DNA of 55,552 nucleotides from Rubritalea profundi (lineage in GTDB: Bacteria; Verrucomicrobiota; Verrucomicrobiia; Verrucomicrobiales; Akkermansiaceae), in NCBI RefSeq assembly GCF_002954445.1, contig NZ_MQWA01000001.1, positions 2,755,737 to 2,811,288 on the forward strand, written 5' to 3'. Both the position numbers and the translations under genes were made by a program. Numbering within the stretch: position 1 is the stretch's first letter; every line of letters starts with the position of its first letter. Below the pieces are notes generated by a model. That model searched no databases and was not told the DNA's origin. It saw nothing but the letters and a program-made list of their open reading frames with translations. Shown here piece after piece: positions 37,420 to 39,029 of the stretch.

Positions 37420-38214
37420 ATGCGCGTATTGGATTATCCAGCAGAGGTACGAGGAATCTTATCATTTGATTTTGATGGCACTCTATTTCTTCCTGAGAAT
37501 GAGGTGGTTTTGGAGCCTGTATTTTATGAGACAATTGAAAAGCTGCGTCAGGATGGATGGCTCTGGGCAATCAATACGGGTAGGTCATTGCTCTTCATGC
37601 TAGAAGGGTTTGAGCAAAGTAGCTTCCCCTTTTCACCTGACTTCCTAGTGGCGCGCGAGCGTGAAATCTACACACCGGGTGACCGTTTTGGACGATGGCA
37701 TAGGCTAGAGGATTGGCATGAAAATTACATGAGAGATACCGCTCATTTTATGAAAGAATCAGCTGGATTCATCGACCTTATGAAACAATACATTGAGGAT
37801 GAGACTGCAGCCCAGTGGATTGAGGAAGAGGGGGATCCGGCTGGCATTATTGCAAGTTCGGAAGATGAAATGATAGTCATTGCGGAATTTGTGGAAGAGC
37901 AACGAAAGAGCTATGATCTAGTTGGGGTGTTGCGAAATTCGATCTACATGCGCTTCACCCATAAGGATTACCATAAAGGCACTTCATTACAGGAATTGGC
38001 AAGGAGGCTGCAGGTGCCAGTCGAGAGAGTCTTTGCCATCGGCGACGGCCACAATGACATTGATAAGCTCCACCCAGATGTCGCTGGGATGATTGCCTGT
38101 GTCGGAAATTCCCAACAAGAGGTGAAAGACTATGTCAGCAGCCATGGTGGCTACGTGGCAAAGGCACACGGCAGCTTGGGCAGCGTCGAAGCTCTCAACT
38201 ACTTTTTAGCTTAG
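37420..38214 (+). CDS. HAD-superfamily hydrolase, Cof type
   Basis: 264 residues. Motif I FDFDGTLFLP carries the nucleophile Asp, motif II is AINTGRS, a Lys is likely in the HKDYHKGTSLQELA segment, and motif IV is IGDGHNDIDKL. The cap domain between motifs is large and mostly helical, as in Cof/sugar-phosphatase members. The substrate cannot be told. The final codon overlaps by 3 bases the stop codon of the convergent MobA-MoaD gene. Confidence 0.9.
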   Translation: MRVLDYPAEVRGILSFDFDGTLFLPENEVVLEPVFYETIEKLRQDGWLWAINTGRSLLFMLEGFEQSSFPFSPDFLVAREREIYTPGDRFGRWHRLEDWHENYMRDTAHFMKESAGFIDLMKQYIEDETAAQWIEEEGDPAGIIASSEDEMIVIAEFVEEQRKSYDLVGVLRNSIYMRFTHKDYHKGTSLQELARRLQVPVERVFAIGDGHNDIDKLHPDVAGMIACVGNSQQEVKDYVSSHGGYVAKAHGSLGSVEALNYFLA

Positions 38215-39029
38215 CCACCGGCAACAGGTGGAATGAAGACGACTTCATCACCTGCTTTGAGTGGAGTGGCCCAATCTGAAAAGTCGTCATTGATCGCTAG
38301 CATCAGCTGCTTTTGTTTGTGCGGAAAGGCGTGGCGAGATTTGAGTTCTTCGTAGAGGCCGGACGACGTGACGGAGTCAGTGGTGACCGATTCCTCGTCG
38401 CAACCAGCAAGTTCACGAAGTTGAGCAAAATAGCGGACGGTGATTGTTTTAGACATACGAGAATGGGTGAGATGACTGCGGACCTCTAATGTGTCAGCTG
38501 GGCTATTAGCATTATCGAGCGCGTGTGGCGACTTTAGAACGATGAGTTTAGTGTCGATGGTCTCTAGCACCTTGCGTGGGCAGCGAGATCCATTTTTGAC
38601 TGCCTGGCTGATGGCTTCGGCCGAACTGGGTTCGTAGATCGCGCAAAGCGGTTCAGCTCGGTGGTCCACTCGGCTGCGGTAGCTAGTCGCTTGGTTGTCC
38701 CTCGTTGAACTGGCTATTAGTTCGGCAATGGTAGGAGACTCGAGTAGTGGAAGGTCGCAGGCAATCACTAGCCAACGGGCGTGCGGGTGGGCTTGTTGCG
38801 CCGCATGGATGGCGCAGAGCGGGCCCTCAGCGGGGTCGATGATGGCGTCCACACCAAATTCTTGATCGGCACGGTGGCTCAGAAAGGATTTCTCGCAGTG
38901 CTCACTGAGCAGGCTGTGCAAACGTATCCACTCAGGTTGGTCGTCACGGTAGATGAGCTGGGCCTTATCCTGACCCATGCGGGTGGATTTGCCGCCGACG
39001 AGAAGGAGTCCGTAGAGTGGTGCTGCCAT
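38211..39029 (-). CDS. Fused MobA-like guanylyltransferase and MoaD-like sulfur carrier
   Basis: 272 residues in one uninterrupted frame. Residues 1-185 are a MobA-type nucleotidyltransferase: LLLVGGKSTRMGQDKAQLIY, DPAEGPLCAIHAA and VIACDLPLLESP. Residues 192-272 are a MoaD/ThiS ubiquitin-like carrier: TVRYFAQLRELAGCDEESV ending VVFIPPVAGG with the C-terminal Gly-Gly needed for adenylation and thiocarboxylation. Both act in molybdenum cofactor synthesis but at different steps. An internal ATG at codon 192 could also allow separate production of the carrier; there is no good Shine-Dalgarno sequence before it. No other mo(b/a) genes are in the window. Confidence 0.85.
   Translation of the reverse strand: MAAPLYGLLLVGGKSTRMGQDKAQLIYRDDQPEWIRLHSLLSEHCEKSFLSHRADQEFGVDAIIDPAEGPLCAIHAAQQAHPHARWLVIACDLPLLESPTIAELIASSTRDNQATSYRSRVDHRAEPLCAIYEPSSAEAISQAVKNGSRCPRKVLETIDTKLIVLKSPHALDNANSPADTLEVRSHLTHSRMSKTITVRYFAQLRELAGCDEESVTTDSVTSSGLYEELKSRHAFPHKQKQLMLAINDDFSDWATPLKAGDEVVFIPPVAGG

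Follow-up and report, generated by a model that had tools for sequence, protein, structure and literature searches.

A MobA-MoaD fusion in Rubritalea profundi and its relatives: a probably working sulfur carrier at the C-terminus of a MobA-like protein

In the molybdenum cofactor pathway, MobA and MoaD serve steps that are not consecutive. In the window (the whole stretch of 55,552 nt of Rubritalea profundi analysed here, 2.756-2.811 Mb of a 4.16-Mb contig) both are encoded in one gene. This raises the question whether the joined protein works as such, whether free MoaD is made in addition, or whether the fused carrier is a remnant. The locus has the following features.

38211..39029, minus strand: MobA-MoaD fusion gene, 272 aa, ATG start, TAA stop, a single open frame
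38562..39011, minus strand: MobA-like NTP-transferase domain, residues 7-156 (Pfam PF12804)
38580..38582, minus strand: codon of Cys150 in the motif C-P/A-R-K/R, the residue covarying with MoaD linkage
38451..38465, minus strand: inter-domain linker, residues 189-193 (AlphaFold2 secondary structure)
38454..38456, minus strand: internal ATG at codon 192, a possible but unsupported second start with no SD-like motif
38214..38438, minus strand: MoaD sulfur-carrier domain, residues 198-272 (Pfam PF02597; phmmer match to E. coli MoaD)
38214..38219, minus strand: C-terminal Gly271-Gly272, the GG end kept in most fused proteins
37420..38214, plus strand: HAD hydrolase gene, convergent neighbour whose stop overlaps that of the fusion

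A sequence-only reading of the window had proposed a fusion in one frame with the carrier at the C-terminus, and both points hold. The frame is uninterrupted, with no stop codon between the domains, and two Pfam domains lie above their cut-offs: NTP_transf_3 (MobA-like) on residues 7-156 with 82.8 bits (E 4e-23, cut-off 27) and ThiS (MoaD/ThiS) on residues 198-272 with 65.5 bits (E 7e-18, cut-off 22.5). The protein ends with PPVAGG, leaving Gly-Gly free. The C-terminal Gly-Gly of MoaD is the site which is adenylated and thiocarboxylated. A Pfam scan of the fusion protein finds no MoaE domain, hence it is not a MoaD-MoaE fusion of the MoaX type. The convergent HAD hydrolase gene has no evident tie to the molybdenum cofactor.

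The MobA-like core runs past the end of the Pfam match to about residue 180 and includes an NxN motif (173-175), with which the NVNTPEE of E. coli MobA aligns. In an alignment of 56 sequences L10, G12, G13, S15, R17, M18, K22, D65, D92, N173 and N175 are invariant and D21 nearly so. The LxGGxSxRMGxDK loop (residues 10-22), the metal Asp (D92) and the C-terminal NxN (N173/N175) are what we take to be the hallmarks of MobA. None of the NCBIfam MobA-type models scanned with the fusion protein reaches its cut-off, and the MobA equivalog TIGR02665 gives 63.5 bits (cut-off 151.85). Judged by fold and motifs, the MobA half is MobA-like and belongs to a divergent subfamily outside this equivalog. The moaD model TIGR01682 (cut-off 66.15 bits) scores 66.0 in the protein scan and 68.7 in the genome scan, and phmmer matches the fusion to E. 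coli MoaD (1fm0_D) with E 1.3e-8. The AlphaFold2 model (mean pLDDT 93, pTM 0.86) places the last MobA helix at 177-188, a linker of about five residues at 189-193 and the first MoaD strand at 194-200. Foldseek against the PDB returns E. coli MobA (1h4d/1e5k) as top folds, with a mycobacterial MoaD/ThiS protein following at rank 45.

The distribution of the architecture was assessed by counting as fused any single frame spanning from residue 14 or less to residue 260 or more. Protein matches occur in 119 of the 195 genomes of the window's family and the one-frame architecture in 87, three of which (G006, G079, G124) have a decayed MoaD end and have lost GG. Rubritalea marina (G032), of the same genus as the window, also carries the fusion, seen in strain DSM 17716 at locus L046. 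Phylum-wide, the protein has matches at E 1e-10 in 91 of 387 genomes. Scanning the contigs of named genomes yielded 208 relatives; the 80 best, chosen by likeness to the window protein, were examined. These best 80 of 208 comprise 55 proteobacterial, 18 verrucomicrobial and two Omnitrophota loci and one each from Kiritimatiellia, Lentisphaerae, Fibrobacteres, 'Euryarchaeota' and an unclassified source; 79 are fused, 78 of them with a GG end. The contig ends just after GG in L051 and inside MoaD in L122; L119 is a tandem with a stop between the domains. A homologue of MoaE, MoeA, MoaA or MoeB lies within the flanks (up to 4 kb) in 74 of the 80 named loci, with MoaE itself in 69. A search among relatives, which had been proposed as a check, recovers the same fusion in the 87 family genomes. 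The assumption that the two proteins are normally separate applies to E. coli but fails in these relatives, where the fusion is common. An assembly artefact is ruled out by the same architecture in many genomes together with a second intact copy in the window genome. As far as sequence comparison reaches, the fusion is real, old and common to many bacteria. Annotators may count moaD as missing in genomes that bear it.

In related lineages mobA and moaD are found as tandem, mostly abutting genes. Of 40 split tandem loci, 35 offer a candidate moaD start that either overlaps the mobA stop or directly adjoins it. At 45 places of mobA outside the family (within the phylum), 26 are fused or in tandem with moaD, while 19 are without moaD in the ~2 kb taken. 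Most likely the fusion came about when tandem mobA and moaD lost the stop codon that separated them; the tandem is taken as the ancestral state from gene order. On the MobA tree, which is unrooted, the fused label has to change five times, and supported branches force at least four of these changes. Other architectures occur as well. In L157 (G061, positions 535-1842) MobA is fused C-terminally to MOSC instead of MoaD, in a genome with separate moaD-moaE. In the split-gene genus (L128-L144) the moaE frames mostly have about 315-340 aa, twice the usual length, which suggests that MoaE is fused to another part or that the frame runs on. A third domain at the N-terminus was considered for some Proteobacteria, which show long in-frame stretches upstream of the fusion (up to 343 aa), but is doubtful, as their first residues look like a composition-driven open frame by eye.

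The window genome holds a second intact copy of the fusion, again of 272 aa, on the same contig (3,036,311-3,037,126), 242 kb off and with 93% amino acid identity. The DNA match between the copies (89% over 893 bp) spans the gene and ~73 bp upstream only. Both copies are sisters in the tree (100/100; dN 0.034, dS 0.41). Their MoaD parts differ by 13 nt (dN 0.006, dS 0.25), and dS of the MobA part is 0.52; the MoaD half of copy 2 is far less diverged from the window copy than its MobA half, as if by gene conversion. A HAD homologue occurs near the fusion of G009, a genome of the same genus, within the stretch fetched there (L196), and the 19.9 kb around copy 2 contain none; the window copy therefore probably occupies the original site. 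At 40-900 of the window a frame resembles an IS630-type transposase by eye.

With respect to cofactor genes, three frames of the window genome match the ThiS family: both fusion copies and, at C1:3341883, one of 68 aa, which is likely ThiS. TIGR01682 matches the two fusion copies only. A single MoaE (C1:3214785, 122.6 bits) provides the partner a MoaD requires and is adjoined by frames that by eye are MoeA-like and MoaA-like. A ThiF-rhodanese (MoeB-like) protein of 375 aa is encoded at C1:2732322, and PF00384 has nine stretches, eight above the cut-off, read as about six loci.

Is the fused MoaD the one that the cell uses? The fused frame is the sole TIGR01682 match in 70 of the 87 fused family genomes. 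A further, mostly weak match is present in 14, and a separate moaD alone matches in three. It is likewise the sole match in 16/16 genomes behind named loci, three of which (G032, G030, G113, identical coordinates) were already counted with the family and 13 lie outside it. MoaE is located within 300 nt downstream of the fusion in 68 of the 87 family genomes and elsewhere in 17; in two it was sought and not found. Gly-Gly terminates 122 of 127 distinct fused proteins and all 27 fetched later. The five proteins without it fall into one clade; in four of these genomes another moaD lies next to a moaE, and the fifth genome has a completeness of 72%. The genus concerned is informative: 17 of its 18 genomes have the fusion (all except G101), and the 11 in which the fused MoaD is the only one keep GG without exception (11/11). 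Five more (G006, G019, G079, G124, G128) also carry a separate moaD adjoining a divergent moaE, and here the fused GG was lost in four and kept only in G128. In G132, the genome of 72% completeness, the fused end reads GGV and no second moaD was found. Since these six genomes form one clade (97/52), the pattern is one replacement followed by decay and not five independent tests.

Even so, the pattern suggests that the fused GG is retained because it is used. Since the fused domain is usually the sole MoaD found, it presumably works as MoaD, and that the MoaD half of the fusion is the cell's MoaD is strongly supported by these comparisons. The cautious earlier statement that the fusion could be functional is borne out insofar as the MoaD half appears to be in use: it is the sole MoaD in most carriers, and GG is kept except in one clade with a second moaD. 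One could argue that the fused MoaD is a passive remnant and that MoaE is served by a different carrier, for instance the ThiS-like 68-aa frame of the window genome. Such a frame does exist, and decayed fused MoaD domains are known from one genus of the family. Against this stand the retention of GG in nearly all fused proteins, the confinement of the GG-less ones to a single clade and the low divergence (13 nt, dN 0.006) between the MoaD parts of the two copies in the window genome, and we consider a passive remnant highly improbable.

A different possibility is that two products are made, with ATG192 also yielding a free MoaD as the working carrier and the fusion acting mainly as MobA. The ATG is located at the MoaD boundary and is present in both window-genome copies. 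An SD-like motif 3-12 nt upstream is absent in a simple scan, but it is absent at the main start too, and such motifs are rare even at separate tandem moaD genes (9/40), so that its absence says little. Conservation is more telling. An ATG occurs in the linker zone of only 28 of 127 distinct fused proteins (7 with SD-like motif) as opposed to the boundary of 39 of 40 separate tandem moaD genes. Allowing ATG, GTG or TTG, 94/127 have a candidate and 33/127 have none. Because of this difference the internal start is, judging from these counts, not maintained after fusion, and it is rejected as a general mechanism. The earlier suggestion of free MoaD from ATG192 is therefore not sustained in general form, though in the window species this start or proteolysis could give some free MoaD. 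Taken as the main route to the carrier, the two-product explanation seems unlikely to us.

A hint that the two halves work together comes from Cys150, which in the AlphaFold2 model directly precedes the helix 151-157. The residue (in CPRK, also CARK or CARR) is found in 121 of 122 distinct GG-ended fused rows of the alignment, the exception being G128 with its second moaD, as well as in all 27 further fused family rows fetched later. It is absent from 5/5 fused rows with lost GG and from both MobA rows with long C-terminal extensions other than MoaD, G061 (MOSC) and G157 (similar by eye). It is also absent from four of 22 split rows (G026, G045, G090, G163), in which moaD is on another contig. 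Outside the family 25 of 26 fused or tandem (linked) rows have Cys150 vs 2 of 19 unlinked rows, with G460, a gap at this position, counted among the 17 unlinked rows without Cys. Within one genome, G494, the tandem copy has Cys and the solo copy Ser. Exceptions are G507 and G479 (unlinked with Cys), G385 (linked with Ser) and G128 (linked with His). G128 keeps the fused GG while having His at this place and a second moaD-moaE, and may represent an intermediate. Two further cysteines are frequent in fused rows, C91 (117/122) and C129 (120/122).

The first 190 rows comprise 163 linked with Cys, two linked without, two unlinked with and 23 unlinked without. Fisher's test, which ignores kinship, gives p 3.5e-25 for Cys150 and 1.4e-8 for the next column (93). 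With the rows fetched later added and near-identicals removed, the set comprises 216 rows, with Cys150 in 184/186 linked vs 2/30 unlinked ones. All these rows stem from similarity searches with the window protein and are not a random MobA sample. Dropped before counting were G169 (mobA at a contig edge, linkage unclear), L122 (cut by the contig end) and L133 and L188 (no MobA row); identical fused proteins were counted once, and G259, G305, G433 and G356, which duplicate named loci, were removed from the 216-row count.

Kinship was considered by a custom Pagel-type test (4 d.f.) on a quick, midpoint-rooted tree of 151 rows, built without columns 148-154; 39 of the 190 rows were dropped, all proteobacterial, linked and with Cys, and rows fetched later were not included. 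The likelihood ratio for Cys150 against linkage is 59.4, and it is at most 21.8 for 19 other columns, which were chosen for high ranks in earlier column tests, though not all ranked high. C91 and C129 reach 10.2 and 2.2, far below Cys150. On well-supported branches four independent pairs are available. Cys150 goes with linkage in 3.6 of them on average and against it in none, which is the highest score of 304 column-residue choices, though four pairs cannot reach significance.

Two causes other than linkage were rejected. Proximity of MoaE does not account for Cys150, as the MoaE of the window genome is distant and Cys150 is still kept. MoaD sequence type fails as well: Cys150 is lacking in seven unlinked genomes from outside the family whose MoaD is 39-49% identical to that of the window protein. 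Common descent has to be taken more seriously: a Cys-type MobA subfamily may simply have stayed beside moaD with no functional tie. Many unlinked non-family rows fall into a few separate clades of the quick tree, the independent pairs are too few for significance, and four rows break the rule. On the other hand, Cys150 was lost at about four separate places within the family, each time with an unlinked or second moaD, the two copies of G494 differ as linkage would predict, and the phylogenetic likelihood ratio exceeds that of all 19 comparison columns. We regard mere descent as a real possibility, albeit not the one we favour. The behaviour of Cys150 suggests that the MobA and MoaD halves cooperate. 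Cys150 probably marks a MobA physically tied to a working MoaD, and because it tracks this linkage the two halves probably touch or exchange chemistry.

Taken together, we consider it quite likely that the locus encodes one two-domain protein, derived from tandem genes by stop loss, whose MoaD is loaded and works in place and whose Cys150 marks linkage to this working MoaD. The Gly-Gly end would be adenylated and thiocarboxylated while attached to MobA, by the MoeB-like protein at C1:2732322. The MoaD half would then dock in the separately encoded MoaE to yield molybdopterin, and the MobA half would later add GMP to give bis-MGD for the molybdopterin oxidoreductases of the genome. Neither cleavage nor an internal start would be needed, as the reactive end is the C-terminus. 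Since GG is free and the internal start is not conserved, we infer loading and function in place without cleavage.

The role of Cys150 itself is a matter of speculation. It might be a partner site to which the thiocarboxylated Gly-Gly of MoaD bonds transiently (acyl disulfide or persulfide exchange), with MobA as holder or sulfur relay for the carrier. A precedent for the chemistry is Urm1, which in its thiocarboxylated form makes an acyl disulfide with oxidised cysteines (PMC12954526). If so, the fusion would make the exchange between Gly-Gly and Cys150 intramolecular; and where MoaD is replaced by a moaD elsewhere, Cys150 would no longer be under selection and would disappear, perhaps earlier than the fused GG. 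We hold such chemistry to be doubtful, and a contact or folding role for Cys150 is more likely than a direct chemical one. In either case the covariation points to a tie between the halves that is undescribed in the literature searched and that can be addressed by a one-residue experiment.

The fusion may finally be compared with known systems. A partial literature collection with few subscription journals, in part excerpts (including PMC6147048, PMC2408646, PMC9103625, PMC9370521, PMC8832034, PMC5720804 and PMC12954526), holds no description of a MobA-MoaD fusion that we could find, and relative to these sources the fusion is new. Already known are MoaD-MoaE fusions (MoaX, DR2607) and fusions of MobA with MobB or MoaC. 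The closest MobA models in NCBIfam, PRK14490 (MobA/MobB) and PRK14500 (MoaC/MobA), both at E about 1e-38, describe fusions themselves, but their partners are MobB and MoaC and, by profile positions, on the N-terminal side, whereas here it is MoaD; the fusion protein falls far short of both cut-offs (133 of 354 bits and 132 of 606 bits, respectively). E. coli MobA (1e5k/1h4d) and MoaD (1fm0_D) share folds and hallmark residues with the fusion, whose profile aligns with 1e5k at profile positions 3-196 and, in the MoaD part, with 1fm0_D. In E. coli, however, both are separate proteins, and in its MobA Arg aligns with Cys150 and Ile with Cys129; among solved structures no E. coli MobA variants at the Cys150 place were seen. 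Gephyrin and Cnx1 (MogA-MoeA) are fusions of cofactor enzymes too, but of different steps; this type has been proposed to help channelling (PMC9370521). MoaX of M. tuberculosis, a moaD-moaE fusion (PMC5720804), and DR2607 of D. radiodurans resemble the present protein in that MoaD is part of a larger cofactor protein. In those MoaD comes first and its GG is internal, and DR2607 is cut by DRJAMM to give a C-terminal Gly (PMC8832034). In the MobA-MoaD fusion, in contrast, GG is the free C-terminus. The fusion indicates that in many bacteria the sulfur carrier of molybdopterin synthase can work, and can serve as the cell's sole MoaD, while permanently attached by its N-terminus to an enzyme that acts later in the pathway.
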